A DNA stretch of 64,000 nucleotides, taken from NCBI RefSeq assembly GCF_000146065.2, contig NC_020449.1, positions 186,001-250,000 of the forward strand, in the 5' to 3' direction. Positions 39,701-64,000 of this stretch are shown piece by piece. The DNA is from Candidatus Cloacimonas acidaminovorans str. Evry. Its GTDB lineage: Bacteria; Cloacimonadota; Cloacimonadia; Cloacimonadales; Cloacimonadaceae. Position 1 is the first letter of the stretch, and each line of letters begins with the position of its first letter. The notes under the pieces are model-generated. The model saw only the letters and a program-made list of their open reading frames with translations. It had not been told where the DNA came from and did no database searches. A program made the translations under genes and the position numbers.

Positions 39701-42700
39701 AATATTACTATTCCAGTTAAGGGGAGCAGTGCCATTATTGGTAATAGTTATTTCAATTTGGCTGGTTTCTGCAGTAGTTAATTCCTGATAAATAATGGTT
39801 GGAGTAACAGCAATAACTGGTTGGTAGTATTCTTCACCGGTAGTGAAACTCCACATTCCACTCCAGATTGTATCAGCTGAGGCAACAGCTCTTATACGCC
39901 AATAGTATGGAGTGTTTGTTTGCAGAGTTATATTAAAGCAATATTGATGTTCCGTAGTATTTAACATTTGAGTTACAACACCCTGATAGATAAGTGAATC
40001 AGGGCTAATCCCTAACCAAACCTCATAGCTTACATCTGGGATATTCTCATAATTCCCCTGCCAGGATAAAGGATAATTTACTAAAACATTCGTAGCACCT
40101 CTATTCGGATCAGGATAACAAGGGGAAAGGGGATTATAACTTGATGTTGACCAAGGCAAAGCCCAACTCTGAGAAAGCAACATTGACTCATAAGAAATAG
40201 GATTATTATCAAGATACAGATACCAAAGATTAGTCAACCCGGCTAAAGGACTAAGGTCACTTATCTGGTTATATGAAAGATTCAGAGACCAAAGATTAGT
40301 CAGCCCGGCTAAAGGACTAATATCATTTATCTTGTTCCAACCAAGCAACAGATATTGCAGATTAGTCAGACCCGCTAAAGGACTAAGGTCACTTATCTGG
40401 TTATTTTTAAGATTGATTACTCGCAGATTAGTCATCCCGGCTAAAGGACTAAGGTCACTTATCTGGTTAGAATGAAGATACAGCTCTTGCAGATTAGTTA
40501 GACCCGCTAAAGGACTTAGGTAACTTATCTGGTTAGAATAAAGATCCAGCACTTGCAGATTAGTCAGACCCGCTAAGGGACTAATATCACTTATCTGGTT
40601 ATAAGCAAGAATCAGATTTTGCAGATTAGTCAGACCCGCTAAGGGACTAAGGTCACTTATCTGGTTATATTGAAGCAACAGATATTGCAGATTATTCAAC
40701 CCTGCTAAAGGACTAATATCACTTATCTGGTTAGCATAAAGCAACAGCTCTTGCAGATTAGCCAGACCCGCTAAGGGACTAAGGTCACTTATCTGGTTAC
40801 TATAAAGATACATCACTTGCAGATTAGTCAAATATTGAGCACCTTCTATACTAATAATATTCCTATCCCATGCATTTAAGGTTCCTGTTAATCCTTGTAG
40901 ATCTGCTATAGTAGGTTGATAATCAGAGGATTGACCTAAGGCCTCATTGATTGCCATTCGGAAATTTGCATCAGGGATATAGGCAATAGGGCTGTGGACA
41001 ACAAAATCTGCCGGAATTTGGATTACAGGATTAGTTATATCATTAGAATTAAATTGCAGGTTATAATGATAAACGCCAACTGTATCAGCAGGTGTAAATT
41101 CCAACAGGCAAAGTGCTGTTGCTCCAGGTTCAAGAGTTCCATAAGAAGGAGTTATAGATATACACAAATCCCTATTAGTTGCTCTTTTGTCTTGTCTGGT
41201 TACAACATAGTCATCCGATATTATCTGGCAATTCCAATTTAGGGGAGCATTTCCTGGATTGTGGACATTAATTTGGACATAACAGGTATCTTGAGTAGTT
41301 AATTCCTGATAGATACTGGTAGGAGTTACAGCAATAACTGGAATTTTAATAAGTTTATTGGAGAAAGCGGGTGTGGAATAGTTGTCGTCTTCATAGTGAG
41401 CTTTAATAGCCCATCTATAATTTCCGGTAGGAAGGTTTTGCCAGGCAAAGTCATAAAAGGTAAGTTCGCCTGTAGTATAGCCGATTTGTTCCCAAAGGTA
41501 TTCCTCATCTTCCTGTCCTTCCTGTAATCTATAAAGAATATAACCCTGTTCCAATCCGGAAACTGACGGCTGCCAGGAAATTTGTAATAAACTATCAATA
41601 AGAGCAGCAGAAACATTTTGCGGAGGGTAAATATAGGAAATAGTTACCGTGGCAGGATTGGAAGGTTCGGATTCAGCGGTTTCATAGAGAGCAGTTACAT
41701 AGTAAGTATAATCCCCCTGGCTCAGGTTTTCATCATAATAGTAAGGATAATAGCTATTACCAATCAGAGTTCCATTCCTGTAGATATTAAAATTCTGCAA
41801 CCCGCGTAGGGGAATTTGGAGAGAGTTTGAAGATGCAGCCAGAGTTCCTAAGGAAGTAGTTTTTTCCTGATTAGGGCTAACAGGAATATTCAGTAAAGGC
41901 AATTCTGTCAGTTCTCTAAAACTGCTTTGGACATAAGCCCGGATACAGAAATTATAATTAAGATTGCTATTGGCTTCCATTAATTCCATCCAGTTATAAC
42001 CATCATTAAGTATAGCTCCTTTTCCTGGAACTACAGGACCTTCATCTACTCCAGCAGGATAGGTATATGCCAAAACCTGATCTATATTATAGCCAATCCA
42101 ATAGGCAGTTGCAGGTTGAATTTGCACGGGGGTAATTAAAGAAACAGTATTCCAGTTATTCATAATAAGATCGTTCGTCTGTAGCGGTTGATCTACTAAA
42201 AGAACGGAAGGACCAATATTATTATCGTCGCCACTCCAGATTCTTATTCTGTAGTTAGAACTGGCTTCGCAGGGAGTAAATTTAACTTGAGTGATATATT
42301 TTCCGGTGTGAGAAAGCAAATCAGACGCAGCAAATTTACAGGCAGCATCCCAAACTTTCGGACTATTAACATATCCGATAGAATTATTTAAATATCCTGA
42401 ATCCCAATAAAGCCAATCGGGCTCACCCAGATTCCAGTTCAATTGGACATTTTTCCAGTTTTCAATAGTGGCAGTAAGGTTTATGGGTTTAATTATCTGT
42501 TCTTGGGTGGTAAAATACCAATTGGGCACATCTTCGGCATAAAGATAGGTATTTCCCTCGCCGAAAGTGTAAGGAGTAACTATCCAATAATATTCTGTTT
42601 CATAATCTAAAGGATTAGGGATTTGATAAGATGTAACATTTCCCACATCTATATTCACCACCGAGAACCCTGCTAAACTCATAACTTCCAATAAATAGCC

Positions 42701-44122
42701 ATCTGGCAAAGGATAATTATTATAAGTAACAGGAGACCATTGCAAAAGAGGCAAGGTCTCTATATAGGTAGCTCCATTATCAGGAAAAACACAATTGGCA
42801 GGCAGAGGCGGAAAATACACAGTAAAAGAAACTGGTTCAGAAAGTGTTGATTCTCCCCCTAAATACACAGCACTAACCTGATAGCTATAATTTTCCTGGT
42901 GATATACATTATTATCTATAAAAATGCTATCGGTAACAGTAGCATAAAGCACTCCGTTTTTATAGATATTAAAGCTCGTATAAGAAGCAACATAAGGAAC
43001 GCTCCACTGTAAAATAACGGAGTAATTTTCTATCTGATAGCGTAAATGAGAAATCGGAGGGCAGGGATACATCCATTGCAAATAGGGATAACCCCCATTC
43101 ACAAAATATTGAGTATCGGGTTGCCAAATATCGGTTAAATCCCAGTCGGTATAAGTGTTTGAGGCATAAGGATAAGTCATTTCGTCTGCAGTTCTACCAA
43201 TTCCACCGGCAGAAATTGTCTGTCCGCTGCTTTCCACATTCCAATAGCTAAAAAGTGTTTGGCTGACAACATTTCTGCCAATAAGTCCACCAGTATTACT
43301 ATTTCCTGTAACGCTACCGAGAGAATAACAGTAAGAAACCGAACTTTGGGTGTCATTAACTCCAAGTAATCCACCAGCACCCCAATTTCCCTGAACAGCG
43401 GAAGTAGAAAAACATTGGCTTAAAGTAGAATTTCCTTGTATACCAACCAGACCACCGGTAGCATTATTACCTGTAACAGTTCCTTTGCTATGAGAAGAAT
43501 AAATTTCACTAGCGCCTTTACTATAGCCGCAAAGTCCGCCGGTAGCAAATTGACCGTTGACCACACAATTAGCAAAGCATTTTTCCAGATGGCAGGATAG
43601 TTCCAAAGAACCAACTAAACCACCGGTTACAGAAGCGCCTGTAATTGTGCCTTTGCTGCTGCAACTTTCAATAAAACACTCTGTTGCTGATCCAATCAGA
43701 GCACCGATATAGTCCTTTCCGTTGATGTATACATCTTTTAGAGTAATATTTTTCAGGACAGCAGAATGGGCATAACCAAACAAACCCAGATTATTTCCCT
43801 CAGGTTGATTGATGTATAGGTGGTAAATATGAAAATTATTGCCATTATAAGAACCTGTAAAAGGAGCGGACTGAGTGCCTATAGGTAACCAGCCAAATCC
43901 TGAATTATAAGGTTCTTCGTTTAGATAAATATCGTCGGTTTGTAAAAAGAACGCACCGGCATAATTCCGCACATTGTTTAAATGTTGTGCAGTGGCAACC
44001 AAATAGGGTGCTGCCTCAGAACCTGTTCCTCCGGCAAATTGAGCCAAACAAGGGCTGATTGATACACAGAGGAAAAATAAAATAAGTGCTAAAGGCAGGA
44101 TTTCAAGTTTTCGGAATTTCAT
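33785..44122 (-). CDS. Giant secreted leucine-rich-repeat protein (internalin-like arrays)
   Basis: This is a 3445-residue exported protein. After a signal peptide (residues 1-27) come GLUG-type repeats (about 100-300, TGGLVG and GGLIGR motifs) and fibronectin-III-like domains. Four LRR arrays follow, of about 9, 9, 12 and 12 units, each 22 residues (LTNLQYLDLGGNQISDLSPL), the SD22/internalin class. Each array ends in NPISYES and is followed by a short domain, a fibronectin-III-like domain and an Ig-like domain. The LRR cap AYIPDDNFRMAINDALGQP opens the next array. The concave LRR faces probably bind proteins or glycans. Unlike its neighbours it ends in RAIMPKRGE and lacks an NPFNP sorting domain, so secretion may differ. 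Confidence 0.82.
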   Translation of the reverse strand: MKFRKLEILPLALILFFLCVSISPCLAQFAGGTGSEAAPYLVATAQHLNNVRNYAGAFFLQTDDIYLNEEPYNSGFGWLPIGTQSAPFTGSYNGNNFHIYHLYINQPEGNNLGLFGYAHSAVLKNITLKDVYINGKDYIGALIGSATECFIESCSSKGTITGASVTGGLVGSLELSCHLEKCFANCVVNGQFATGGLCGYSKGASEIYSSHSKGTVTGNNATGGLVGIQGNSTLSQCFSTSAVQGNWGAGGLLGVNDTQSSVSYCYSLGSVTGNSNTGGLIGRNVVSQTLFSYWNVESSGQTISAGGIGRTADEMTYPYASNTYTDWDLTDIWQPDTQYFVNGGYPYLQWMYPCPPISHLRYQIENYSVILQWSVPYVASYTSFNIYKNGVLYATVTDSIFIDNNVYHQENYSYQVSAVYLGGESTLSEPVSFTVYFPPLPANCVFPDNGATYIETLPLLQWSPVTYNNYPLPDGYLLEVMSLAGFSVVNIDVGNVTSYQIPNPLDYETEYYWIVTPYTFGEGNTYLYAEDVPNWYFTTQEQIIKPINLTATIENWKNVQLNWNLGEPDWLYWDSGYLNNSIGYVNSPKVWDAACKFAASDLLSHTGKYITQVKFTPCEASSNYRIRIWSGDDNNIGPSVLLVDQPLQTNDLIMNNWNTVSLITPVQIQPATAYWIGYNIDQVLAYTYPAGVDEGPVVPGKGAILNDGYNWMELMEANSNLNYNFCIRAYVQSSFRELTELPLLNIPVSPNQEKTTSLGTLAASSNSLQIPLRGLQNFNIYRNGTLIGNSYYPYYYDENLSQGDYTYYVTALYETAESEPSNPATVTISYIYPPQNVSAALIDSLLQISWQPSVSGLEQGYILYRLQEGQEDEEYLWEQIGYTTGELTFYDFAWQNLPTGNYRWAIKAHYEDDNYSTPAFSNKLIKIPVIAVTPTSIYQELTTQDTCYVQINVHNPGNAPLNWNCQIISDDYVVTRQDKRATNRDLCISITPSYGTLEPGATALCLLEFTPADTVGVYHYNLQFNSNDITNPVIQIPADFVVHSPIAYIPDANFRMAINEALGQSSDYQPTIADLQGLTGTLNAWDRNIISIEGAQYLTNLQVMYLYSNQISDLSPLAGLANLQELLLYANQISDISPLAGLNNLQYLLLQYNQISDLSPLAGLTNLQNLILAYNQISDISPLAGLTNLQVLDLYSNQISYLSPLAGLTNLQELYLHSNQISDLSPLAGMTNLRVINLKNNQISDLSPLAGLTNLQYLLLGWNKINDISPLAGLTNLWSLNLSYNQISDLSPLAGLTNLWYLYLDNNPISYESMLLSQSWALPWSTSSYNPLSPCYPDPNRGATNVLVNYPLSWQGNYENIPDVSYEVWLGISPDSLIYQGVVTQMLNTTEHQYCFNITLQTNTPYYWRIRAVASADTIWSGMWSFTTGEEYYQPVIAVTPTIIYQELTTAETSQIEITITNNGTAPLNWNSNIVLTRAEQKTGTHPCINKEVKIDKELNAGRENTAENRMRQREEDGQMLMRDGKPVNPLSEYGIDEKTDIERMKAEKRYFNSVSRDRMLSDKFGLEGIDSDGRKANIKDNDRDSTSTMPDINLLPSSGTIEPNSSVTCILNFIPKDTPGTYNYELQLSSNDPVSPLITVPLKYVVNSPIAYIPDDNFRMAINDALGQPSYYQPTIADLQGLTGYLYAEGRNIISIEGAQYFTNLDSLYLSYNQISNLNPLAGLTNLKGLNLGSNQISDINPLAGLTNISWLFLFGNYISNIAPLEGLYNLRNLQLHYNQISDITPLAALIDIGGIALGSNQIVDITPLAGLTHLIGLELYHNQINNIDALSGLINLQWLYLDGNQIIDISPLAGLSILRELYLENNQINDISTLSELNNLQYLFLYNNQISDLSPLAGLTNLWWLLLDGNPISYESMLLAQSWSLPWSTTSYNSLSPCYPDPNRGATNVLVNYPLSWQGNYENSPDVYYEVWLGISPDSLVYQGSVTQMVNTTEHQYSFNITLQANTQYYWRVKAISATEQIWSGMWSFTTGEEYYQPVIAVTPPSIYQELTTAETSQIEITITNNGTAPLNWNSNIVLTRAEQKTGTHPCINKEVKIDKELNAGRENTAENRMRQREEDRQMLRRDGKPVNPLSEYGIDEKTDIERMKAEKMYFNSVSRDRMLSDKFGLEGIDSDGRKANTQDNIKDNVRDSTSTMPDINLSPSSGTIEPYSSVTCILNFIPKDTPGTYSYELQLSSNDPVSPLITVPLEYIVNSPIAYIPDDNFRMAINDALGQPSDYQPTIADLQGLAGNLHADGRNIISIEGAQYLTNLQSLDLDSNQISDLSPLAGLTNLLELYLLDNMINYLSPLAGLTNLQYLDLGGNQISDLSPLAGLTNLQDLYLGWNQINYLSPLAGLTNLQELDLNNNQISNINPLAGLTNLQKLYLYYNQISDLSPLSGLTNLQYLLLEYNQISNISPLAGLTNLQVLDLYSNQISDLSPLAELTNLWYLDLSYNQISDLSPLVGLVNLQGLWLDNNQINDLSPLIGLTNLQYLHLYYNQISDLSPLTGLTNLHYLYLAYNQISDLSSVEGLTNLQELYLDYNPISYESMLLAQSWSLPWSTTTYNPLSPCYPVPNRGATNVLVNYPLSWQGNYENSPDVYYELWLGISPVELFYQGVGTQMVNTTEHLYSFNPILEPYTQYYWRVRVVSSTAQIWSGMWSFTTGEGYYQPVIAVTPPSIYQELTTAETSQREITITNNGTAPLNWNSNIVLTRAEQKTGTHPCLIPENNNEQEQNYSAEKRYFNSVSRDRMLSDKFGLEGIDSDGRKANTQDNITDNVRDSTFTMPEINLSPSSGTIEPYSSVTCILNFIPKDTPGTYNYELQLSSNDPVSPLITVPLEYIVNSPIAYIPDDNFRMAINDALGQPSDYQPTIADLQGLAGNLHADGRNIISIEGAQYLTNLQSLDLDSNQISDLSPLAGLTNLQELYLYYNQISDLSPLAELTNLQYLDLGGNQISDLSPLAGLNNLQELYLYWNQIGDLSPLAGLTNLQELDLYSNQISDLSPLAELTNLWYLDLSYNQISDLSPLAGLTNLQDLYLGWNQINYLSPLAGLTNLQVLNLYSNQISDLSPLAELTNLQYLHLYYNQISDLSPLTGLTNLHYLYLAYNQISDLSPLIGLTNLQYLHLYYNQISDISPLAELTNLQYLWLDSNQISDLSPLAGLTNLWWLWLDGNPISYESMLLAQSWSLPWSTTSYNPLSPCYPDPNRDATNVLVNYPLSWKGNYENSPDVYYEVWLGFNPYLLFYQGVVTQMVNTTEYLYSFNPILEPYTQYYWRVRVISATEQIWSGMWSFTTGAYGAGNTSMLEPVPVTLAINALQNQVRLSWQRRRDEESYYVYWSENPYAEFPEGWNGPVNVTETSFTDTLSNKCFYRVFAVPNMRGEIENKQNTKPRAIMPKRGE
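34080..41300. repeat. Four duplicated 1.5-2 kb modules and 66-base LRR minisatellites
   Basis: The gene body is built of modules starting near 41300, 39784, 37966 and 35943, marked by a shared CCTGATAAATACTGGGTGGA stretch. Within each, 66-base units encode one LRR (around 40200-40850, 38390-39020, 36370-37200 and 34440-35310). The two modules nearest the 3' end share long identical stretches, so they are recent duplicates. The 38.4-39.0 kb array has diverged most. Confidence 0.8.
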
Positions 44123-47521: not shown

Positions 47522-48996
47522 GCTTTCACCTTGTATTCATCATCTATGTAGTTCCGCTCCAGTTCGGTTATCGCATAGATCTTATTCTGGATGCGCAGCT
47601 TGGACTGGAGAGAAAGGTTGTATTTACTGAGCTGATCGATGGTAGCTTCGCAGCTCCACTTGGAGTTATGAAAGTCGATCAGGTAGTCTTTAATCCTGCC
47701 TTGCAGTTGAGTTGTATCTCCTGCCAAGATATCCAGACAGTTAATCTCCGGCTTCTCCGGATTGCCCCGTTTGCTGACGAAGCTGACTACATCATCCGCA
47801 TCAATATCAATTATCGCACTGGTATAAGCATCCTTGTTCTTGAGCACAATACGTCCCTCGGGATCGGAGAAGATGGTGGCATTATAGAGCATAAGCATGG
47901 CCTGCAGAGCTTTTAGGTTATCGGTTTGCTCATCATTGTAGTTCTCATAGGCCTTGCCTGGAAACAGCATAGCCGGGAAGAGATTACCATGAAAATGAGC
48001 TTCGACCCAGTGGCCAATGTAATGACTGCTGCCATAGCTGCGGCCATCTATTAATCCTACGGATACTAATCCGGTATAGAGAGTAGTCTCGGAGATACCG
48101 TTCTCAATATAGAAGCCGATAAACTCATTGGAAGCGTTTTCCAGTGAAGCCAGATCTTCCACCCAGTCGGTCTTTTCATCATACTCAATAACAACAGGAC
48201 AGATGTTATTGAAGAACTTGTAGATGCGTCCACGATAACGGCCTTGGTATCTGGTCGTGGCAGGATTGGGATAAGTGGCTTTGATCACTTTCTTATAGGC
48301 AAATACAAAACTGATGCGGTTTACTACGGTATCGATCCTGAAGCCACAGAAAGGTCCCGGCCAGCCTGAGCTGTCATAACTGTAAGTCCAGCCACCGGTG
48401 GGGTTGGGAAATTGAATTAGGTCATCAAAGTCGATATGGGCAATGGTCATAGCGCTACCGGAACTGATGTTCAAAGTTGGGAGAGTGAACTGGTTGGAGT
48501 ATGGAATGCTGATCGGTATCTTCTGCTCTATGTCTTGTATAAAGTAGCCGAGTATCCATTGGGGTAGATAACCAGCTGTAAGCGAGTAATAGTGAGTAAG
48601 GTCGGAGAACAGGGATAGCAGCTTGATCTTATCGTAACAGGTGATCTTGAGCACTCCCGATGATACATCAAAGGATAGTTGTGATGTGTCTATAATACCT
48701 GTAAAGAATAATGAGTTATCCCGATAGACCCTAACCTCGAAGTGAGATATGTAACGCTCATGCTCATTGTTCCCACTGAGGATGTTCTCCTCTATCCAAG
48801 TAGTGGGAAAGCACTCAAAGACTAGCCGCTTGGGTTCTCTGCTGTAGTTGGAGACCGACTGCAGCTTATCGGCAGAGACAGATAGGCTGATGATGGCTCG
48901 GTTAGTAGCTGTATCTTCCAGGCTATGCTTGACCTGGTTATAGTCAGAAGCATCGGTCTTGCCTTGGATGAAGTCGATCTTGAAGAGGTTGGGCAT
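47509..48996 (-). CDS. Phage tail hub/baseplate-like protein
   Basis: This 495-residue protein starts on the TGATG overlap with the tape measure stop. Beta-rich throughout, with VRVYRDNSLFFTGIID and a C-terminal part ending in ITELERNYIDDEYKVKAWLL, it resembles tail-associated hub proteins that follow the tape measure in siphoviruses and contact the fibre. Assignment is by position and general character, not by a diagnostic motif. Confidence 0.55.
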   Translation of the reverse strand: MPNLFKIDFIQGKTDASDYNQVKHSLEDTATNRAIISLSVSADKLQSVSNYSREPKRLVFECFPTTWIEENILSGNNEHERYISHFEVRVYRDNSLFFTGIIDTSQLSFDVSSGVLKITCYDKIKLLSLFSDLTHYYSLTAGYLPQWILGYFIQDIEQKIPISIPYSNQFTLPTLNISSGSAMTIAHIDFDDLIQFPNPTGGWTYSYDSSGWPGPFCGFRIDTVVNRISFVFAYKKVIKATYPNPATTRYQGRYRGRIYKFFNNICPVVIEYDEKTDWVEDLASLENASNEFIGFYIENGISETTLYTGLVSVGLIDGRSYGSSHYIGHWVEAHFHGNLFPAMLFPGKAYENYNDEQTDNLKALQAMLMLYNATIFSDPEGRIVLKNKDAYTSAIIDIDADDVVSFVSKRGNPEKPEINCLDILAGDTTQLQGRIKDYLIDFHNSKWSCEATIDQLSKYNLSLQSKLRIQNKIYAITELERNYIDDEYKVKAWLL

Positions 48997-51974
48997 CAGA
49001 TCTCACTCCTGATCATCTTGCCGGTATCGGCTATCTCCGAGACCTTAACCGGATCATTGGAGAGTGGATCGACATTGACTTCGATGATGGGCTTGGAGTC
49101 CATGACTGTTTGCTTGAGAGAGACGATTTCATCTTTCAGGGCGGCGATCAGGTCGATCAGGGTATTCATACCGCCTCCGGAAGAGATAGTGCCACCGGCG
49201 GCATAATATGAGCCCAGGTTACTGGGAATAGGCACTGAGGGAACAGGCATACCCGCAAAGGCAAGCTTCACCTGTTCCAGAGGGGCAAAGTTGAGGAAGT
49301 CAAAGAGGTTCCTGCCCAAGGCCTTGACCCTATCTTTAGCGGTGACGTATTCATCACCCTCGGCTTCGATCAGGATGCCTCCCTGATTGTGGGAGGGCCC
49401 GGTTAAGAGACCACCAGTGGCTTTCTTCTCGAACTTGGTGGCATTGATCCTGGCGATGTTGGCTATGCCCGCAGCCATCGCAGCTGCAGCAGCCGCCACT
49501 GCCAGTCCGGGTCCCACTACAGGAATACCCACCATTGACTTATAGGCACCGATAGCGGCAGAGAATGTATCCACATAACCTTGAGCTATAGCCGAGGCTT
49601 TCCAAAGTTTGAAACCACGCTCGGTGTCCTTATCCTGAGCTGCAGCGAGGTCCCCGAAGATCTTGGAGACGCCACTGGAAACCTGAAGCTGGTAATTGGT
49701 TCTGAGAGTTTTCAGTGTCTCCTGCTTCTGCCGTTCGATTTCCTCTTCTGTATAGCCGGCTTCCAAGAGTTTGGATTTCATCTTCTCATAGTATCTATCC
49801 ACTTCCAGAAGCTGCTTGCTGTAGCTGTCACCTATATTATCGAGGTCACGAGAATAGAACTCGTCCCGGATATCCTGCAGTTCCTGCAGCTTGGCCTTCT
49901 CTTCATCTTGACGTTCTTGGAGCAGTTTGACGTGCCGGGCATCTATCTCTGCTATCTGAGCATGGATCAACTGCTGTTCCTGCTGAGGCAGGTTCTGCTG
50001 AGCCCAGGCATAATACTCTTCCATGCTCGCTTTGAGAGCAGTATAGGAATCGACTCCTAAGTTCTCCAGATTGGAGAAGTAATCGATCTCAGCCTTGTAT
50101 CTGGCTTGGACGGCATCCTTCTCTTTGGTAGTGATCTCGTTATCCTGCTGATTCTTCCAGGCATCAAGGTTCTCGATGGCCTGCTGTTCCGCTTCACTGC
50201 CCTCCTGAGTGAATTCCCTGATCAGAGCTAACCTTCTCTGGTATTCGGCTTCTATCTTCTCGGTCTCAGTTTGTCTCAGCCTGGCAAGGTCTTCCATCAA
50301 GCGTAACGCTTCCTTGCGTCTAGCTTCAGCTTCGGCAGCGGCTTGATTGGGTGTGGTGCTACCACCTCCACCGCCAGAACCACCAGTAGTTTGAAAACTC
50401 AGATCGGGAGCATCCAACATCGCTTGGCGATAAGCTTGACCTATCTGCTGCAGATCGTTCTTGGCAGCCTGCAGTTGTCCAGTTAATGCCCCAAAAGAGT
50501 TGATCCGTCTTTCTAACTTGAGCCACTCACCATCATTACCGAAGTAGGAAGCAGGATTGAAACCCATAGCGTTTTGATCACTGGTGAGGAACTCCCAATC
50601 CACAGATGCCTTCAATTGGTTCATCCGAGCATTAGCTGCATTGTAATCCGCTCGCTTCTCATCCAGTTCGATCTGGAGTTCAGCTACCTTCCTGATCTGG
50701 GCATTGTACTTCTCTCCATAAACTTCGGCTATCTTCTTCTGCACCAGTGCATCGGAAACTGCGCGCAAGGCGGTAGCTAGGTTATTATATGCTGCTGTCT
50801 CCAGATTGATATTGCCGAGATACTCGGAGTAGTTGTCATTCAAGGACTTGATGACATTCTTCATCTCCCTCTTATCTGCGGCTGTGAGAGAAGTAGCAGA
50901 ACGCAGTTCCAATAGCCTGGAAGCCAGTAAACTGAACTTCTCAGCTTCCACAGATACCTGCCGCTGGGCATCCTTGATCTCGTCATTCATACTTCTCTGA
51001 GCAACACTAACCTCATCGGTCTTAGTGGATGCTGCAGCCAGTCCAAAGCCCATGGCAGACAATGCACCCACCGCTATACCGATGATGCCAGCAACCGGGT
51101 TCATGGCTACCTGCAGGGCATGATAAGCCGCTGTCAGAGCAGTCACCGCAGTGGTAACAGTCCCGATCACTGGTATAGCGATTACTATCCCTGCTACGAA
51201 GCCCTTCATCACTGGAGACAGGCTGTTATAGGCATCCATCAGTAAGTGAAGCCCCTGCAAGAGAGGATTGATTAGAGTGGTCAGCATATCGCCTACTGTC
51301 TCCTGGATATCTCCCCAGGCATTAACATTCTGCAAACGCAGATCAGCCAGAGCAGTTGCTGTTCCGCCATAGTCCTCACCTAACTTCTCGACCAGATAGG
51401 ATACACCTTCTGTCTTCAGACGGGTATCATCCAGCTCGATGCCATATCTGCCCAGCATCTCGGTATGCCCATTCAGAGCCCGACCCATGAGATCAAAGGC
51501 AGATTCCACGCTCATCCCGGTAGCTTTATTGGCTTCGGTAAAGTCCAGCAGTACCGGCACAAGTTGTTGAATCTCATCTTTATTGAGTTTGAAAGTCTGG
51601 GAGAGTTTGGACATCAGAGATAGAAGCTTATCATCTTCAAAATTGGTCACAGACTGCATGGAGGATGCAAAATTGCCCATCTCACCAGCAGCTTCGCCAA
51701 AGGCTATCGAAGCCAAAGTCATGGCTTGTCTTTGTCCCAGTGAGGCATCGAGCAGACCATTCATAGACCTGACCAGACCTCCCACTACCTGCAGGACTCC
51801 ATCCACTGCGATCTTGACATCTCGAATGGTAGCCAATGCCTGTTCCGCAGTAATTTTCACAGCAGCAGGCTTCTCCACTGCAGACTGGGTGGACTCCGCC
51901 TCCTGCTTTACTTCGGCAAGCTTTAGTGAAGCATCATTAGTGACGAGGACGAGCTTAAATGTTAGGTCTGGCAT
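48996..51974 (-). CDS. Phage tail tape measure protein
   Basis: This 992-residue protein sets tail length and is ejected with DNA. It is the longest gene of the phage operon. The N-terminal third is helical with Ala-rich and Gln-rich segments. The centre has hydrophobic stretches (VMKGFVAGIVIAIPVIGTV and VAGIIGIAVGALSAMGFGL) that could insert into the host membrane. A long charged coiled coil follows (about 480-760, EAEARRKEALRLMEDLARLR), then a Gly/Ala region. At the usual 0.15 nm per residue a tail near 150 nm is expected (inference). A tail assembly chaperone lies upstream as usual. Confidence 0.85.
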   Translation of the reverse strand: MPDLTFKLVLVTNDASLKLAEVKQEAESTQSAVEKPAAVKITAEQALATIRDVKIAVDGVLQVVGGLVRSMNGLLDASLGQRQAMTLASIAFGEAAGEMGNFASSMQSVTNFEDDKLLSLMSKLSQTFKLNKDEIQQLVPVLLDFTEANKATGMSVESAFDLMGRALNGHTEMLGRYGIELDDTRLKTEGVSYLVEKLGEDYGGTATALADLRLQNVNAWGDIQETVGDMLTTLINPLLQGLHLLMDAYNSLSPVMKGFVAGIVIAIPVIGTVTTAVTALTAAYHALQVAMNPVAGIIGIAVGALSAMGFGLAAASTKTDEVSVAQRSMNDEIKDAQRQVSVEAEKFSLLASRLLELRSATSLTAADKREMKNVIKSLNDNYSEYLGNINLETAAYNNLATALRAVSDALVQKKIAEVYGEKYNAQIRKVAELQIELDEKRADYNAANARMNQLKASVDWEFLTSDQNAMGFNPASYFGNDGEWLKLERRINSFGALTGQLQAAKNDLQQIGQAYRQAMLDAPDLSFQTTGGSGGGGGSTTPNQAAAEAEARRKEALRLMEDLARLRQTETEKIEAEYQRRLALIREFTQEGSEAEQQAIENLDAWKNQQDNEITTKEKDAVQARYKAEIDYFSNLENLGVDSYTALKASMEEYYAWAQQNLPQQEQQLIHAQIAEIDARHVKLLQERQDEEKAKLQELQDIRDEFYSRDLDNIGDSYSKQLLEVDRYYEKMKSKLLEAGYTEEEIERQKQETLKTLRTNYQLQVSSGVSKIFGDLAAAQDKDTERGFKLWKASAIAQGYVDTFSAAIGAYKSMVGIPVVGPGLAVAAAAAAMAAGIANIARINATKFEKKATGGLLTGPSHNQGGILIEAEGDEYVTAKDRVKALGRNLFDFLNFAPLEQVKLAFAGMPVPSVPIPSNLGSYYAAGGTISSGGGMNTLIDLIAALKDEIVSLKQTVMDSKPIIEVNVDPLSNDPVKVSEIADTGKMIRSEI

Positions 51975-52045: not shown

Positions 52046-52309
52046 ATGTTACTAAAAGGTGAGTACAAGCATCTAGAAAGTGTGGTGGGACCAAAAACCA
52101 AAATTCTGTATCATATTGGGTTTGGAGAATTCCCAGATAAGGATACCCTTATCCCTGAATACCATGCAACGGTTTTCGATCTTAATGGATATCCAATTGA
52201 TCCTACAAAAAGGATTGTCTTGACTTATAATGAGTACCAAGCATTGCTTGATGATCCCAAGGAGAAGGACAAGATAGTAAATCAACTCGTAACTCAGTTC
52301 GATTTGTAA
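52046..52309 (+). CDS. Small opposite-strand gene inside the phage operon (moron-like)
   Basis: This 87-residue protein of unknown function lies on the plus strand in the gap between the second Dam-like gene and the tape measure gene, both on the minus strand. It starts MLLKGEYKHLESVVG and continues through YHATVFDLNGYPIDP to a helical C-terminus. An AAGGAG site lies six bases before the ATG at 52046, which I prefer to a start at 51959. Its last 16 bases overlap the methylase 3' end. Lower GC than the neighbours, its own promoter-like TTGACA and the inverted orientation fit a moron, an extra cargo gene. Confidence 0.65.
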   Translation: MLLKGEYKHLESVVGPKTKILYHIGFGEFPDKDTLIPEYHATVFDLNGYPIDPTKRIVLTYNEYQALLDDPKEKDKIVNQLVTQFDL

Positions 52310-53079
52310 TTCCTAATCAACAGTTCCGTCTCAGTTTGGAACGCTCCAGACACTGTGTACTGTGTCTCGACTTCATCAATGACGCAGCCATCGTATAGCT
52401 GTCTGATGTAAGGATCATTGTTGTAGGAGAGCAGGAACTTGCCCTTGATCTGTTTCAATACTTCGGCCAGCTCTTTATGCTGGTTGAAGGCGTCAGCATC
52501 TTCACGTTCGTAGAGGTACTCCTTGGTATAATAGGGAGGGTCCAGATAGAAGAACGTGTGGGGGTGGTCGAACCGGGATACGATCTTCTCCCAAGGTTGT
52601 TTTTCGATGATCACATGACGCAGGCGTTCCGAGGCTTCTTTCACCTTGTCCAGATTGCGGAGAGGCATGTACTTGTAGCCCTGATTGACGCAAAAGTTTT
52701 TACTGCGTGAGCCATAACTGCAGGCGAGGTTGTAGTAGAACTTGATTGCTCTCTCCAACTCGGTTCTAGGTTCATGCTTCATAAAGTTATCGAACATCTC
52801 CCTCGATACTAAGTACTGGTTCAACTCAGTCACAAACGCTTCAGGATGCTGTTTTATGTATCTCCAGAAGTTCACCAGATCGCCATTGATATCGTTATAG
52901 ACCTCAGTATAGCGGCTCTTCTTAGATAACTGCCAGTCTTCCTTGTTGGCACTCTTCCCGAACAGTATCCAGGCAGCACCGCCAAAGACTTCACAGTAGA
53001 TGTCATGCTTGGGGATAAGTGGCAGTATCTTCTTGCGTAAAATGCGCTTACCGCCAACCCAGGAGATGATGCTGTTCAT
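52294..53079 (-). CDS. DNA adenine methylase, D12 class (Dam-like), second copy
   Basis: This 261-residue D12-class N6-adenine methyltransferase begins ISWVGGKRILRKKILPLIP, where the family binds cofactor. Next come CEVFGGAAWIL as motif I and the catalytic FFYLDPPYYT. It starts on an ATGA overlap with the stop of a paralogous methylase. The two share layout but are clearly diverged, so they may recognise different sites. In phages such enzymes protect DNA from host restriction. Confidence 0.88.
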   Translation of the reverse strand: MNSIISWVGGKRILRKKILPLIPKHDIYCEVFGGAAWILFGKSANKEDWQLSKKSRYTEVYNDINGDLVNFWRYIKQHPEAFVTELNQYLVSREMFDNFMKHEPRTELERAIKFYYNLACSYGSRSKNFCVNQGYKYMPLRNLDKVKEASERLRHVIIEKQPWEKIVSRFDHPHTFFYLDPPYYTKEYLYEREDADAFNQHKELAEVLKQIKGKFLLSYNNDPYIRQLYDGCVIDEVETQYTVSGAFQTETELLIRNYKSN

Positions 53080-53891
53080 GAAATCCCCCTAATGTCTCTG
53101 GTTTTGGTCTTGATTTTGGAGTTCTCCTGCTCGGATTCTACAAGATCGAAGTTGGCGATGATCACTTCATTGAATTCGGACTTGCCTTCCTTGCGGTTGA
53201 TGCCCTTAGTGCGGGTAACGTGCTTGATATTAAAACTCTTGTATAGCTTGAGCACTTCCGGGTTGTCATCATAGCTGAGTATGAAACGTCCCTTGATGCC
53301 TTTTAGCTTCTTGCAGAGTTCCTCATGACTGAACTGCTTGGAGTTCTCGTAAGTATAACCAAGCATGTAGGGTGGGTCACAGTAGAAGAAATTGCTCTTG
53401 GTGTCATACTTCTCTATTACCTTCTCATAAGAGAGGTTCTCGATGATTACCATATCCAGGCGTCTGTGGAGTTCTTTGATACGTTCCAGGCGGTTATACA
53501 TACTGGAGGTGCCACGCTTCTGAGAGGTGCCGAAGCTGTCACCTTTGCTGCCAAATGATCTGGTTATCAGAAACATGAACCTGGCCGCCCGCTGTATCTC
53601 GGTTAATCCTTCCTGCTTGAGGATATCACCAAAAAGCTTGCGGCTGGCTACTAACCAGTCCAGTTCTTTGATCAGCTCATCAGGATGATACTTCACCTGC
53701 AGGAACAGGTTGACCAAGCGGTTATCCAGATCGTTATAGACCTCCAGCTCTCCCCACTTCTCTTTGTAGAGGAGCATCCAGGCAGCCCCACCGAAGGGCT
53801 CGATATACCCGGTGATATCCTTGGGGATAAAGGGAGCGATTACTTTCCGAAGCAGGCGTTTACCGCCTATCCAGCCGATGATGGCATCCAT
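53076..53891 (-). CDS. DNA adenine methylase, D12 class (Dam-like), first copy
   Basis: This 271-residue D12-class N6-adenine methyltransferase has IIGWIGGKRLLRKVIAPFIP at the N-terminus, YIEPFGGAAWML as motif I and the catalytic FFYCDPPYML. Its ATG overlaps the stop of the frameshifted tail chaperone (TAATG), and its own stop overlaps the next methylase start (ATGA). Two methylases between chaperone and tape measure is unusual, as that slot is normally empty. Confidence 0.88.
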   Translation of the reverse strand: MDAIIGWIGGKRLLRKVIAPFIPKDITGYIEPFGGAAWMLLYKEKWGELEVYNDLDNRLVNLFLQVKYHPDELIKELDWLVASRKLFGDILKQEGLTEIQRAARFMFLITRSFGSKGDSFGTSQKRGTSSMYNRLERIKELHRRLDMVIIENLSYEKVIEKYDTKSNFFYCDPPYMLGYTYENSKQFSHEELCKKLKGIKGRFILSYDDNPEVLKLYKSFNIKHVTRTKGINRKEGKSEFNEVIIANFDLVESEQENSKIKTKTRDIRGIS

Positions 53892-54342
53892 TATGCATCT
53901 CCATTTTGGTCGGTGATACAGATCCGAAGGTAAAGTTCGGGCAGAGTCATATTGTTGAAATCATCATTGGTGAAGCCCAGTTTACGCAAGATCATTTCGA
54001 ACCTCTCGAAGGGGTATTTGGAGACGCTGTTACCGCCAATCCGAAACTCCCGAGCCAGCTTGCGAACCTCTCTTTGTTGGCTCTGATATAGACGAAAAAA
54101 GCGGAGATATACTCCAGGGCTTCGAGGGCGTCCATTTCGTCAGGTTCTCTTCCTGAGATGATTTTTATCAGCTCTTTATCGGCTTCCGATTGGCTGATCA
54201 GTTCCAGCAATTCCACCTCACTGACCTTGGCTACCTGGCCGGAGAGGAAGTCCTCAAGCTTGGCTTTCAGGGTAGCATTGGAGATAGTGAGGCAGAGTAT
54301 TTGCCGCAGTTGGCTATAGCTGAGTTTGGGTTCTCGCTTCAT
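53891..54342 (-). CDS. Phage tail assembly chaperone, made in two forms by -1 frameshifting
   Basis: The zero frame gives a 116-residue helical protein ending at 53992. At codons 82-83 (TTT TTC) lies the slippery heptamer T TTT TTC. Shifting back one base gives a 150-residue protein that continues FRLYQSQQREVRKLAREFRI and ends NGDA, stopping at 53891 exactly where the next gene starts. The -1 extension is the more protein-like frame (YPFERFEMILRKLGFTNDDF), while the zero-frame tail is short and Ser/Pro-rich. A short and a long chaperone upstream of the tape measure is the lambda gpG/gpGT arrangement. The ATG has an AAAGGA ribosome site. Confidence 0.78.
54052..54100 (-). promoter_or_regulatory. 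Programmed -1 frameshift signal
   Basis: The slippery heptamer UUUUUUC covers 54100-54094. After a ten-base spacer, GAGCCA (54083-54078) can pair perfectly with UGGCUC (54057-54052) around a 20-base loop. A heptamer plus downstream stem at this distance is the usual signal for -1 ribosomal frameshifting. Confidence 0.7.
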
Positions 54343-54356
54343 AGAATAGTCCTTTT

Positions 54357-54599
54357 TCAGTTGCCGAAGAACATCTTGAAGGCAATGCCCAACAGCAAGA
54401 AGAACTGGGAGGTGGAGACGGACAGAAGTATCTTCATATTCGTCTCCACTCTCGCCATTCTGGTTACCAGTGACTTGCTGCTGTCACCATTGCCGTAGAT
54501 CTCCTCGTGCACTGAATCTATCTTTTCTTTGAGCACCCCACAGCCCGACAAGTCGTGCTGCGAGGACCCCGCGATTTCAGGTTTACATAGGCAATCCAT
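54357..54599 (-). CDS. Small coiled-coil membrane protein (XhlA-like)
   Basis: This 80-residue protein has a Cys-rich N-terminus (MDCLCKPEIAG), a coiled coil (KEKIDSVHEEIYG to TRMARVETNMKILL) and one C-terminal membrane helix (SQFFLLLGIAFKMFF). The layout resembles XhlA-type lysis helpers, but it lies between tail tube and chaperone. The ATG at 54599 has AAGGAA just upstream; a GTG at 54650 would add 17 residues. Confidence 0.5.
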   Translation of the reverse strand: MDCLCKPEIAGSSQHDLSGCGVLKEKIDSVHEEIYGNGDSSKSLVTRMARVETNMKILLSVSTSQFFLLLGIAFKMFFGN

Positions 54600-54642: not shown

Positions 54643-55188
54643 TCAGACACCCGCAGGGATATCCTTGAGCAGGAAGATCTTGTTGGAAGTTACTCCGGAG
54701 AACTCAGTGGAAATGACTACATTGAAGAGGCCGTCAGCCTCTCCCGACCAGTCAACTGTCCAGCGGAGTCCGGTGAAGATCACAGCTCTGTCATACTCTT
54801 TGGAGACCACCACGATGGTGGTATCCTTGCTCATGAACAGAGTGCTTTCCAGGAAGTTCTTCTGCTTGGTGGATAGTCCGGAGATGTTGAGTTCGACCGT
54901 GCTGGTGCGCTTGCCCGGAATGGTATAGTTGCGGGTCTTGAGCTTGGTCAGCTTGGAGTCCGTCTTACCGGGCTTCTCGGCTAGTTCCCCGAGCAGATCG
55001 AAGTTGGTAGTCAGTTCCGTCTTGACCGAGCCTTGAGTGGCATACAGCGTATCGATGGAGGTCTGATCATAGGTGCCGATCCCGAAATAGACGAGATCAG
55101 CGACCAACACATCCATGAGCTTGCTGAAATTGAGATCAGCTTCGGTCATAGGGGCGGGATAAGTGGGTGGTATGATGGGATTGGGCAT
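54643..55188 (-). CDS. Probable phage major tail tube protein
   Basis: This 181-residue protein has beta-rich segments (STVELNISGLSTKQKNFLES, then TTIVVVSKEYDRAVIFTGLR) and no membrane helix. It lies between the capsid genes and the tail chaperone/tape measure, where the tail tube gene is expected, and its size fits. It starts on a TGATG overlap with the upstream gene. No sheath gene precedes it. Identity is inferred from place, size and strand pattern. Confidence 0.58.
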   Translation of the reverse strand: MPNPIIPPTYPAPMTEADLNFSKLMDVLVADLVYFGIGTYDQTSIDTLYATQGSVKTELTTNFDLLGELAEKPGKTDSKLTKLKTRNYTIPGKRTSTVELNISGLSTKQKNFLESTLFMSKDTTIVVVSKEYDRAVIFTGLRWTVDWSGEADGLFNVVISTEFSGVTSNKIFLLKDIPAGV

Positions 55189-55538
55189 CAGAACACCCCT
55201 CTGATCTTCTTGCCGATGCTAAAGAGCCATTTACGGTTGTGGAACACGTATTCGATGGCTCCTCCGATGGTGCCGAAGACCTTGAGGATGACATTCGTCT
55301 GCCTGGCCGGGAGGGACTTGGTGGCTCGCTCCACAGCCAGTTGTTTTTTAGCATAATCATCCAGGTCTTTGGTGGCAGGATTGATCTTGATGTCCTGGAT
55401 GATGTCCAGGATGATAGCCAGAGCCGAGTTGACCTTGGCCTTGTCGATCAGCTTCCCGGTGGTTCTGGAGATGATCCAGACCACCAGAGCCGAGATCAGA
55501 CCCAGGAAAAATTCCTGATTGGCAATAATGAAGTCCAT
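55188..55538 (-). CDS. Small phage membrane protein, possible holin
   Basis: This 116-residue protein has one clear N-terminal membrane helix (FFLGLISALVVWIISR), then a basic helical part (DDYAKKQLAVERATKSL) and a weakly hydrophobic C-terminus. A good ribosome site (AAGGAGT) precedes the ATG. A holin is possible because the endolysin is in the same operon, but it could also be a virion protein. It lies between capsid and tail tube genes. Confidence 0.42.
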   Translation of the reverse strand: MDFIIANQEFFLGLISALVVWIISRTTGKLIDKAKVNSALAIILDIIQDIKINPATKDLDDYAKKQLAVERATKSLPARQTNVILKVFGTIGGAIEYVFHNRKWLFSIGKKIRGVF

Positions 55539-60486: not shown

Positions 60487-61626
60487 GTGAAAAAGATAAT
60501 TGATAACATCCGCAAACTCTTGGCAGATGGCGCATTCAAGGATGAACAGCATGTGCGTTTTTCCTTGGTAGGGAGAATATGCCAAGAACTTGGATGGGAT
60601 ATATGGAATCCTGAAGAATTCTATACTGAGTACCCAGTAAAGAGATACCCACTTCAAGAAATCACAACTGAACTTCGAGGAAGAGTTGATGTTGCTTTGA
60701 TACTGCCAGAAAAGCGCTCGGAGATTGCGGAAGTTTTCATTGAAATCAAAAGTCCATACAAACTTCAGAATGAGCTTGTTGCAGGTGAAACGCAACTAAA
60801 AAGGTACAATTGGTCTGACAAATCAGCGATCAGCATCTTGACTGACGGCATCATTTGGCGCTTCTATTTACCATCTCTTGGGGGATCCTTCGAAGACAGT
60901 CTTTTTAGTGAGATAAATCTACTTGAAGATGACATAGAGTCTGTTTGCATTGTATTTGATCAAGTACTGAGGAGAGATAACTTTAGAAAACAAGCTGTAG
61001 AATCCGCTGAAGCCATTTTTGAAGAAATCGCCAGGATTAAAAAACTTAGTCTTGTTAAAAGTGAAGCAGAGGAAATAGCAAGGAAGACTGGCTTGCAGAA
61101 ATTTACAATTGCATCCCAGCTATTAAAGAATCAGCATGCATACGAAATGGACGAATCCGAAATAGCGAGCTTGTGGGATAAAAAAATACCCAAAGTAACA
61201 CAAGCTCCAACAGTAGTTTTTCCGCCTGTTCCCCCGGGAAATAAAGGAACAACACAGGAACCGCCTAAACTAGGTGAGGTTGACTTCACAGTGTTACAGG
61301 ATTACAGTTACAAATCAGCAAGGGTAGTTGTAGTTGGTGGCATAACCACTCCAGTAAAACACTGGTGGGAGATTAAGAAGCATGTTTTCAACTATTTGCT
61401 TGAGAAGAATCCTGCACTTGCCTCATCGGATATCCTTGCGCTATTTACGAAAAGGACTGATAGTATGGATATAAGGTTGATAAATGGTATGTATTCAAGA
61501 GGAAGAATGTCGGCGACGGGCATCGTAAAGCAATGTAGAGCTGCTATGAAAATTGCGGGATATGAACCATGTAAAGATTTACAGGTAGGCTTCGTTGAAT
61601 CTGAACGTAAAAGGAAAGGTCAATGA
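60487..61626 (+). CDS. Type I restriction HsdR N-terminal-like nuclease, without motor domain
   Basis: This 379-residue protein has an N-terminal PD-(D/E)xK nuclease of the HsdR-N type: Asp68 (RGRVDVAL), Glu86 and Lys88 (VFIEIKSP), then KRYNWSDKSAISILTDG. Real HsdR subunits exceed 900 residues and carry two helicase domains, which are absent. The middle is helical (about 165-220), a Pro-rich linker follows, and the C-terminus (about 275-375) is a separate unknown domain. The GTG start has GAGGGA upstream. The stop overlaps the HsdM start (ATGA), so the two proteins are made together. Confidence 0.72.
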   Translation: MKKIIDNIRKLLADGAFKDEQHVRFSLVGRICQELGWDIWNPEEFYTEYPVKRYPLQEITTELRGRVDVALILPEKRSEIAEVFIEIKSPYKLQNELVAGETQLKRYNWSDKSAISILTDGIIWRFYLPSLGGSFEDSLFSEINLLEDDIESVCIVFDQVLRRDNFRKQAVESAEAIFEEIARIKKLSLVKSEAEEIARKTGLQKFTIASQLLKNQHAYEMDESEIASLWDKKIPKVTQAPTVVFPPVPPGNKGTTQEPPKLGEVDFTVLQDYSYKSARVVVVGGITTPVKHWWEIKKHVFNYLLEKNPALASSDILALFTKRTDSMDIRLINGMYSRGRMSATGIVKQCRAAMKIAGYEPCKDLQVGFVESERKRKGQ

Positions 61627-63695
61627 GCCAGAACCACTCTCAAATCGCATCCTTTATCTGGAGTATATGTAACCTCCTCAGAGGTCCCTATAAACGCAAC
61701 GAATACCGGAAAGTCATCTTGCCCTTTACTGTGCTCAAGCGTTTTGATTGCATCCTTGCACCCACCAAAGACAATGTCCTGGCAGAGCTCCCTCACCTCT
61801 ACGGCAAATCTGATAACATCATATCCGAGAGCCTGATCAGGATCACAGGTGTTCCCTTTTACAACAAATCACGTCTGGACATGAAGAAACTGCTAGACGA
61901 TACAGAGAATATCGCCATCAACTTGCAGTCTTACATAAACGACTTTTCGCCCAATGTGCAAAAGATCATAGAGTACTTTGCCTTCTCAGAGCAGATCGCT
62001 CGTCTGCAGGATGCCAACCTGCTTTATCTGGTGCTGCAGCGCTTTGTAACCGATGAGCTCGATCTCAGCCCCCAAGCAGTGGATAACATTCAGATGGGAC
62101 TAGTCTTTGAGGAACTGATCCGTATTGGGGCAGAGCAATCCAACGAGGAAGCCGGAGAGCACTTTACGCCCCGTGAGGTGATCAAGCTGATGGTGAATCT
62201 GCTGCTCAGTCCTGAAGCCGACCTTGCCAAAAGTCATGTCGTAAAAACTATCTTTGACCCAGCTTGCGGAACCGGAGGGATGCTAACAGCCGCCGAAACC
62301 TATATCAAAGAACTGAACCGCGACGCAAAACCTCACCTATATGGTCAGGATTGGAATAAAGAATCTTATGCTGTATGTTGTTCGGACATGCTGATCAAAG
62401 GTGAAGTTGCTAAAATACACTACGGCTGCTCCTTCGAGCAGGATGGCTTTTCCACAGACAAGTTTGATTATATGCTTGCCAATCCTCCTTTTGGTGTAGA
62501 ATGGAAAAAGCAACAAAAGACCATTACCGATGAACATGAAAAGCTTGGCTACAATGGCCGCTTCGGAGCCGGACTGCCCCGCATTAACGATGGCTCCTTG
62601 CTCTTTTTGCAGCATATGATCTCCAAAATGAGGTCAGTGGAGGAAGGCGGTAGCAGGATTGGCATTGTCTTCAATGGTTCGCCCCTCTTTACCGGAGATG
62701 CAGGAAGCGGGGAATCCAATATCCGCAAATGGATCATCGAAAACGATTGGCTGGAAGCTATTATCGCCATGCCCGACCAACTCTTTTACAATACCGGCAT
62801 CAGCACCTATATTTGGATCATCACCAATAAAAAAGAAGCACACCGCAAAGGCAAAATCCAGCTTATCGACGCTCGGCAATTTTACAACAAAATGCGCAAA
62901 AGCCTGGGCAATAAACGCAACATCATCGGAGATGGAGAGGATAACCGTTTTGACCACATCAGCTTGATCACCCGGATTCACAGCGACTTCATCGACAATC
63001 AGGAATTGGAATTCACCTGTAATGGCACTACGAAAACAGCTATCGTCAGCAAGATCTTTGACAACAAGGACTTCGGCTACCAAAAGATAACCGTGGAGCG
63101 CCCCTTGCGCCTGAACTTCCAAGTTTCACAGGAACGCATTGCCCGGCTGGATAATAATACTACCTTTGCCAAGCTTGTCGAAAGCAAGAAGAAAGACCCC
63201 ATCGAAAAGCAGAGAGAGATGGATGCTGGCAAAGCTCTGCAAGACAGAATAAAAGCAGCTCTGAACAGTATGGATGGAAGCATTATATACATGAACCGGG
63301 AGCAATACCTCAAAGCACTCAGGCAGGCACTCTTACAGCATCATCTGTCATTGGGCAATCCGGAGCTCAAAGCAATCCTGGAAGCCCTCTCCGAGCGTGA
63401 TGAAACTGCCGATATCTGCAGAGATTCCAAAGGCATGCCGGAAGCTGATACCGAACTGCGGGATACAGAGAATGTACCTCTTAAGGAAGACATTGATACT
63501 TACTTCAAGAGAGAGGTGCTTCCCCATGTTCCCGACGCCTGGATTGACTACTCCAAGACTAAGATCGGCTATGAAATCCCGTTTAACCGCCATTTTTATG
63601 TGTATCAGCCGCCAAGGGGATTGGAAGTTATAGAAGCAGAACTTTTCAACATAGAGAAAGAGATTGAAGCTTTACTACTGGATTCAAATGTATGA
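61623..63695 (+). CDS. Type I DNA methyltransferase subunit (HsdM-like)
   Basis: This 690-residue N6-adenine methyltransferase is of the HsdM type. The N-terminal helical HsdM domain (about 5-130) includes NEYRKVILPFTVLKRFDCIL. The Rossmann domain has FDPACGTGGM (motif I, about 211-220) and NPPF (motif IV, 287-290). The C-terminal 200 residues are an extension common in long HsdM forms (FGYQKITVERPLRLNFQVSQ). It would need a specificity subunit; the next gene overlaps by ATGA and may take that role, but its visible part does not look like HsdS. Codon use is more GC-rich than in the nuclease gene. Confidence 0.85.
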   Translation: MSQNHSQIASFIWSICNLLRGPYKRNEYRKVILPFTVLKRFDCILAPTKDNVLAELPHLYGKSDNIISESLIRITGVPFYNKSRLDMKKLLDDTENIAINLQSYINDFSPNVQKIIEYFAFSEQIARLQDANLLYLVLQRFVTDELDLSPQAVDNIQMGLVFEELIRIGAEQSNEEAGEHFTPREVIKLMVNLLLSPEADLAKSHVVKTIFDPACGTGGMLTAAETYIKELNRDAKPHLYGQDWNKESYAVCCSDMLIKGEVAKIHYGCSFEQDGFSTDKFDYMLANPPFGVEWKKQQKTITDEHEKLGYNGRFGAGLPRINDGSLLFLQHMISKMRSVEEGGSRIGIVFNGSPLFTGDAGSGESNIRKWIIENDWLEAIIAMPDQLFYNTGISTYIWIITNKKEAHRKGKIQLIDARQFYNKMRKSLGNKRNIIGDGEDNRFDHISLITRIHSDFIDNQELEFTCNGTTKTAIVSKIFDNKDFGYQKITVERPLRLNFQVSQERIARLDNNTTFAKLVESKKKDPIEKQREMDAGKALQDRIKAALNSMDGSIIYMNREQYLKALRQALLQHHLSLGNPELKAILEALSERDETADICRDSKGMPEADTELRDTENVPLKEDIDTYFKREVLPHVPDAWIDYSKTKIGYEIPFNRHFYVYQPPRGLEVIEAELFNIEKEIEALLLDSNV

Positions 63696-64000
63696 TTGAG
63701 CATAGTTCAATTAAGCTATCCAAGGAGATAATAGCCTTAAGCAATTCAACTACTTGGGAATCAGCTATGAAAGAATGGGTGTTGAGTGAAGTATATTCAG
63801 ATAGGATATTTGCAGCAATTAAACGAATATCAAAAGATAATGCCAAATCCTGGAATATAGAAGCTATAGAATATATGAATGAACGTGGATGGCTTACGGA
63901 ATGGGAGTATGGGTTTTGCATAAACACAATGAAGAAAAGAGTGCTATCAGAAAGACAGTTGAAATCCAGGGTAGATATAAATCAAAAACTTCTAAGGAAA
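63692..64000 (+). CDS. Unknown protein of the restriction-modification operon (cut by window edge)
   Basis: The first 103 residues are visible and the frame is open to the last base. It starts MIEHSSIKLSKEIIALSN and is helical with Trp and Lys-rich segments (SAMKEWVLSEVYSDRI, YMNERGWLTEWEYGF). It overlaps the HsdM stop by ATGA, so it is translated with it. The family is not recognised from this part. It does not resemble the target-recognition domain of HsdS, though the remainder might. Confidence 0.6.
   Translation, partial: MIEHSSIKLSKEIIALSNSTTWESAMKEWVLSEVYSDRIFAAIKRISKDNAKSWNIEAIEYMNERGWLTEWEYGFCINTMKKRVLSERQLKSRVDINQKLLRK

Follow-up and report, generated by a model that had tools for sequence, protein, structure and literature searches.

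A probable programmed -1 ribosomal frameshift in a putative tail assembly chaperone gene of a Mu-like prophage from the Cloacimonadota

A Mu-like prophage in the genome of a Cloacimonadota bacterium very probably encodes two versions of a chaperone in one gene, and we propose with high confidence that these are two tail assembly chaperones made by programmed -1 ribosomal frameshifting, as with gpG/gpGT of lambda. This arrangement had been suggested in a preliminary description of the DNA, and it is supported here by a comparison of 44 loci, by evidence of selection on two overlapping reading frames and by the position of the gene. The analysis covers a 64-kb stretch of DNA (the window) from a host genome that consists of a single contig of 2,246,820 bases; the genes and elements of the chaperone region all lie on the reverse strand.

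The zero-frame open reading frame, G (53992..54342), identified by ORF calling and by its homologues, encodes the short form of the chaperone, with 116 amino acids. It contains a slippery heptamer, T TTT TTC (54094..54100), from which a -1 frame extension of 67 amino acids, T, runs to its TAA stop (53891..54094); in the window sequence, a -1 shift at the heptamer gives a G-T fusion of 150 residues. The two frames overlap for 99 nt (53995..54093), and both are under selection there. Because the -1 frame carries stops on the 5' side of T, the only start available to the extension is an ATG at the G stop (53995); the locus therefore consists of two overlapping frames, the second of which is in -1 and has no start at its beginning. 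The T stop (TAA, 53893-53891) and the ATG of the next gene, which starts at 53891, have one base in common (TAATG). The end of the short frame at 53992, the heptamer at 54100-54094 and the 67-residue extension given in the preliminary description were all found again in the sequence, and the extension does stop where the next gene starts, by virtue of this one-base overlap. The peptide across the G-T junction is YISAFFRLYQSQQR, and the tail of the short form is SWLGSFGLAV.

Homologues were collected from 125 genomes of the phylum Cloacimonadota, from IMG/VR and from GTDB contigs. Fourteen of the 125 genomes were positive (16 with a profile search, the two extra being doubtful), and the GTDB-contig relatives found with this protein are all titled Cloacimonadota or Cloacimonetes. 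Weak matches in genomes G092 and G005 were rejected as relatives, as the stretches examined hold no phage genes. None of the peptide patterns used for the initial IMG/VR and GTDB collections covered the heptamer, so that these collections are unbiased towards it; one later IMG/VR pattern included the Phe-Phe-Arg junction. Removal of duplicates left 41 loci with full sequence, to which three were added later to give a set of 44, many of them close relatives, such that counts over the set are not independent. L072 was excluded, its site being masked.

The heptamer is in X XXY YYZ phase (GCT TTT TTC), taking in codons 82-83 of G and the last base of codon 81. Its conservation in related phages had been proposed as a check of the frameshift, and the result is favorable: T TTT TTC is present in 43 of the 44 distinct loci, and L069 has T TTT TTT, within a run of seven T. 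The motif itself is too common for its rarity to serve as evidence, and we dropped that argument; the window holds 55 copies of TTTTTTC, both strands counted, and a search for the heptamer combined with an open -1 frame gives six crude candidates among 145 ORFs of at least 60 aa. The motif alone would therefore not suffice, and it is conservation that carries the argument. Within the final 80 codons of G, compared in 20 disjoint pairs of loci, synonymous change reaches its minimum at the slip site, where the lowest three codons show 4 synonymous changes against 17.0 expected (z -4.2) and the last five show 5 against 22.0 (z -4.6). The first slip codon is TTT in 41/41 loci, while the other phenylalanine codons of G are TTC in 39 instances and TTT in four; where alanine precedes it, the alanine codon is GCT in 36/36, compared with 34/205 for alanine elsewhere. 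These observations indicate a slippery heptamer conserved in the correct phase, as would be expected of a G/GT pair.

A second element at the locus, GGAG (54112..54115), lies 11 nt 5' of the heptamer and resembles an internal Shine-Dalgarno sequence. It is conserved at synonymous positions: its leucine codon ends in G in 40/40 loci and its glutamate codon is GAG in 40/41, in contrast to the glutamate three codons earlier, which is GAA in 33/34. The 3' end of the host 16S rRNA, CACCTCCTTT, contains the anti-Shine-Dalgarno sequence complementary to GGAG, and the combination GGAG-N11-TTTTTTC is found once in the 64-kb window, against 0.09 expected. Internal Shine-Dalgarno sequences stimulate -1 shifts at a distance of 9-14 nt (PMC5009743), and the GGAG falls within this range, as in a dnaX-type site; we therefore regard it as a putative stimulator, overlooked in the preliminary description, for which the sequence data give better support than for the downstream stem. 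RNA folding indicates that GGAG could also pair weakly with bases adjoining the heptamer.

In the mechanism that we propose, the occurrence and efficiency of slippage, the part played by the stem and the function as a chaperone are all inferred. Most ribosomes would read G to its stop and release the 116-aa short form. A minority would be paused by pairing of GGAG with the 3' end of the 16S rRNA, and perhaps by the stem too. These ribosomes would slip back by one base on T TTT TTC, pair again there and go on to complete the 150-aa G-T fusion. On the lambda model, the fusion would be the minority product, the G part would coat the tape measure protein and the T part would recruit tube subunits. 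In a more elaborate version, which we think unlikely, reinitiation at the ATGA would add a T fragment of 34 residues to the G-T fusion and to the short form, whose own tail is under selection. A cassette of Shine-Dalgarno element and stem would set the ratio of the three, and the chaperone family would be restricted, within the limits of the searches, to phages of Cloacimonadota.

The T run at the slip site could also act during transcription. RNA polymerase slippage on it would produce altered mRNAs from which the fusion is made by standard translation, and the six T of most loci, or the seven of L069, offer a substrate of this kind. The run is short, however, for such a process, since the slippage reported for bacteria in a review takes place on nine A or T (PMC5009743). 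Slippage by the polymerase would also leave the conserved C after the run, the presence of GGAG at frameshift spacing and the maintained reading phase without explanation, and we consider it very unlikely.

The stem noted in the preliminary description, with six bases on each side and a ten-base interval from the heptamer, is present at exactly that spacing, with a 5' arm GAGCCA (54078..54083) after a 10-nt spacer and a 3' arm TGGCTC (54052..54057); we treat both arms as weak assignments. The alignment shows eight column pairs in which 94% of cells are paired and two pairs are changed on both sides, and RNAalifold, unprompted, recovered seven of the eight; the region is dual-coding, and the covariation is confounded by this. 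The stem is absent from the relative L013. When five copies were folded and compared with shuffled sequences, only that of L014 was clearly more stable (z -3.7). The stem is a plausible stimulator, but it adds little to the argument because the copy in the window is no more stable than its shuffles (z +0.9). The preliminary description had combined heptamer, stem and gene position against the possibility of a sequence error; the rejection of an error stands, while the weight given to the stem does not.

The distribution of changes between codon positions points to selection on both frames. In disjoint pairs, 63% of the changes in G before the slip site are at codon position 3. Within the overlap, position 3 of the -1 frame takes 31%, which corresponds to an even spread, and on the 3' side of the short frame's stop its share rises to 65%. 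When synonymous codons of G were redrawn, the similarity of the -1 frame in the overlap exceeded the null with z 14.6-16.2; the same test in ten control windows upstream gave z from -1.1 to 2.2. No -1 stops are found in the overlap in any of 11 sequences, where 5.5-5.6 would be expected from the redraw, and in the ten upstream control windows they occur in 8-11 of the 11 sequences. Across the aligned loci the overlap varies in length by whole codons only. This pattern argues that the T extension is selected as protein, as in a G/GT pair. The tail that belongs to the short form alone is likewise conserved across loci, and for this reason both products are probably in use.

Selection on the -1 frame bears on a further possibility, namely that T is never fused to G and that its last 34 residues alone are made by reinitiation at the ATG overlapping the G stop (ATGA). 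The overlap of G stop and -1 frame ATG is found in 40/41 loci, and a purine-rich stretch frequently precedes it. Against this, protein-level selection on the -1 frame starts at the heptamer, well upstream of the ATG; L127 has no start codon at the zero-frame stop, and the stop of L014 is elsewhere. Reinitiation also leaves the slip site unexplained, and we judge it less probable still than polymerase slippage.

The division between G and T is itself conserved. In all 44 loci, from Cloacimonadota genomes and viral contigs, the two are in separate frames with one joining point, and the divergent L013, L014 and L127 (roughly 35-50% identical) retain the split. Two outcomes had been named beforehand as speaking against frameshifting, a continuous frame in relatives and an extension without homologues. 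We looked for both: there is no continuous frame among intact related phages, and the extension does have homologues, which share 42-100% identity and without exception lie in the -1 frame with respect to G. The genome carries another copy of G at a different site (97% identical), and this copy shows the same split. A sequence error, the alternative raised in the preliminary description, or a recent mutation that disrupted a single continuous frame is thus reduced to a negligible probability and effectively excluded, even though a homopolymer run is a typical place for errors. The two-frame layout is shared by the second genomic copy and by 43 further distinct loci, which come from independent assemblies, and both frames are under purifying selection.

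Several loci depart from the common form. A seemingly continuous frame in genome G054 (L078) was rejected as a deletion remnant that fuses G to the tape measure gene, beside a repeat. This interspersed repeat of 33-59 bases (L078 4477-4542, 4963-4995 and 5167-5232) lies within and next to the chaperone and tape measure genes, both degraded, of this relative, which belongs to a different family within the same order. In L126 both G and the overlap contain deletions and the two frames are retained; it may be a poor assembly. A 9-base insertion, GCYTACAGW or close to it, recurs near the end of T in L035, L044, L047, L070 and L071, so that several lineages carry an added Ala-Tyr-Ser/Arg at an identical position, and L071 has a second copy in the dual-coding overlap, where both frames are kept.

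Neither G nor T has a significant match to a described family in Pfam, PHROGs, NCBIfam or PDB sequences. The proposed search of the -1 extension against phage tail proteins thus gave no significant match in these four collections, and the only named hint for the chaperone halves is the non-significant match of PHROG 441, a tail assembly chaperone family (E 0.22). The structures that AlphaFold predicts for G and T are helical and of modest confidence, and fold searches with them returned no match; the G-T fusion has no relative in phage GenBank records, and a search of Rfam yielded only a chance snoRNA match. Tail chaperones as a class keep their layout although their sequences have little similarity (PMC5009743), and because of this we do not count the lack of a family match against membership of the G/GT class. 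The chaperone name is putative; it is drawn from where the gene lies and how it is built, and sequence homology plays no part in it.

In most loci the gene order is portal, protease-capsid, small membrane protein, putative tube, small gene, G/GT, two methylases and tape measure, with synteny in 40 loci; in L076, L077 and L127 the methylases are absent and GT is followed directly by the tape measure gene. The tape measure protein (48996..51974, 992 aa) matches PHROG 3336 (E 6.9e-18). The putative tail tube protein (54643..55188, 181 aa) is named from position and synteny only, having no family match in Pfam, PHROGs or NCBIfam searches, and its gene is duplicated in L077 and L127. The chaperone gene would accordingly be the small gene expected between tube and tape measure, with the tube putative by position. 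The putative tube gene is flanked by two small proteins with a stretch resembling a membrane helix (54357-54599 and 55188-55538), holin/XhlA-like by eye and with no family match in Pfam, PHROGs or NCBIfam.

The gene that overlaps the GT stop by one base encodes a D12-class adenine DNA methyltransferase (methyltransferase 1, 53076..53891; Pfam PF02086, E 3.1e-27), and the next a Dam-type DNA methyltransferase (methyltransferase 2, 52294..53079; NCBIfam TIGR00571, E 4.7e-23, below the curated cut-off). The interval between GT and tape measure, occupied by these two Dam-type genes (52294-53891), is an unusual cargo place inside a tail module. We read the prophage as a Mu-like transposable phage from its genes for a Mu-type transposase, a TniB/AAA-type ATPase, a Mu F-like protein and an S24 repressor; it also has a weakly recognised small terminase, a portal and an XkdF-type protease. 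On the opposite strand of the prophage (window 60487-64000, L150 1-6699) there is a complete-looking type I restriction-modification set (HSDR_N-like, 379 aa; HsdM, 690 aa; HsdS-like, 440 aa; HsdR, 1011 aa), and beyond it an XRE-peptidase-like protein of 390 aa and a PIN-like protein of 164 aa, both named by eye. Just outside the prophage, 33785-44122 encodes a probably secreted protein of 3445 aa with long arrays of leucine-rich repeats in near-identical blocks.

Programmed -1 frameshifting at this locus would extend a known principle and add none, and the mechanism would not surprise a specialist. Its significance is that of a probable tail-chaperone frameshift in Cloacimonadota phages, in proteins that none of the searched libraries recognises; the phylum and the unrecognised proteins make the locus worth annotating, and annotators gain a rule for joining the G and T ORFs. 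The internal Shine-Dalgarno element, slip site and dual-coding overlap together form a well-defined natural cassette for tests of the short-to-long ratio in phages.

Comparison with known systems places the locus closest in layout to lambda gpG/gpGT, where a small ORF between the tube and tape measure genes undergoes a -1 shift near its end (PMC5009743). The position, the -1 extension and the second overlapping frame without its own start are alike in the two systems (PMC5009743); the Cloacimonadota locus differs in its slip site, in its internal Shine-Dalgarno element, in having no detectable sequence similarity to the lambda proteins and, usually, in the two methylase genes between GT and tape measure. 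The chaperone frameshifts of Mu, FluMu, P2 and D3 likewise precede the tape measure gene, and Mu is also transposable (PMC2628397); the shift reported for Mu is -2 (PMC2628397), whereas that of the Cloacimonadota prophage would be -1. In its signals the locus resembles E. coli dnaX, which combines an upstream Shine-Dalgarno sequence, a homopolymer-type heptamer and a downstream stem (PMC5009743), although the stem is less certain here. In dnaX about half of the ribosomes are shifted on A AAA AAG to an early stop, while in the Cloacimonadota prophage the shift would lengthen the protein.
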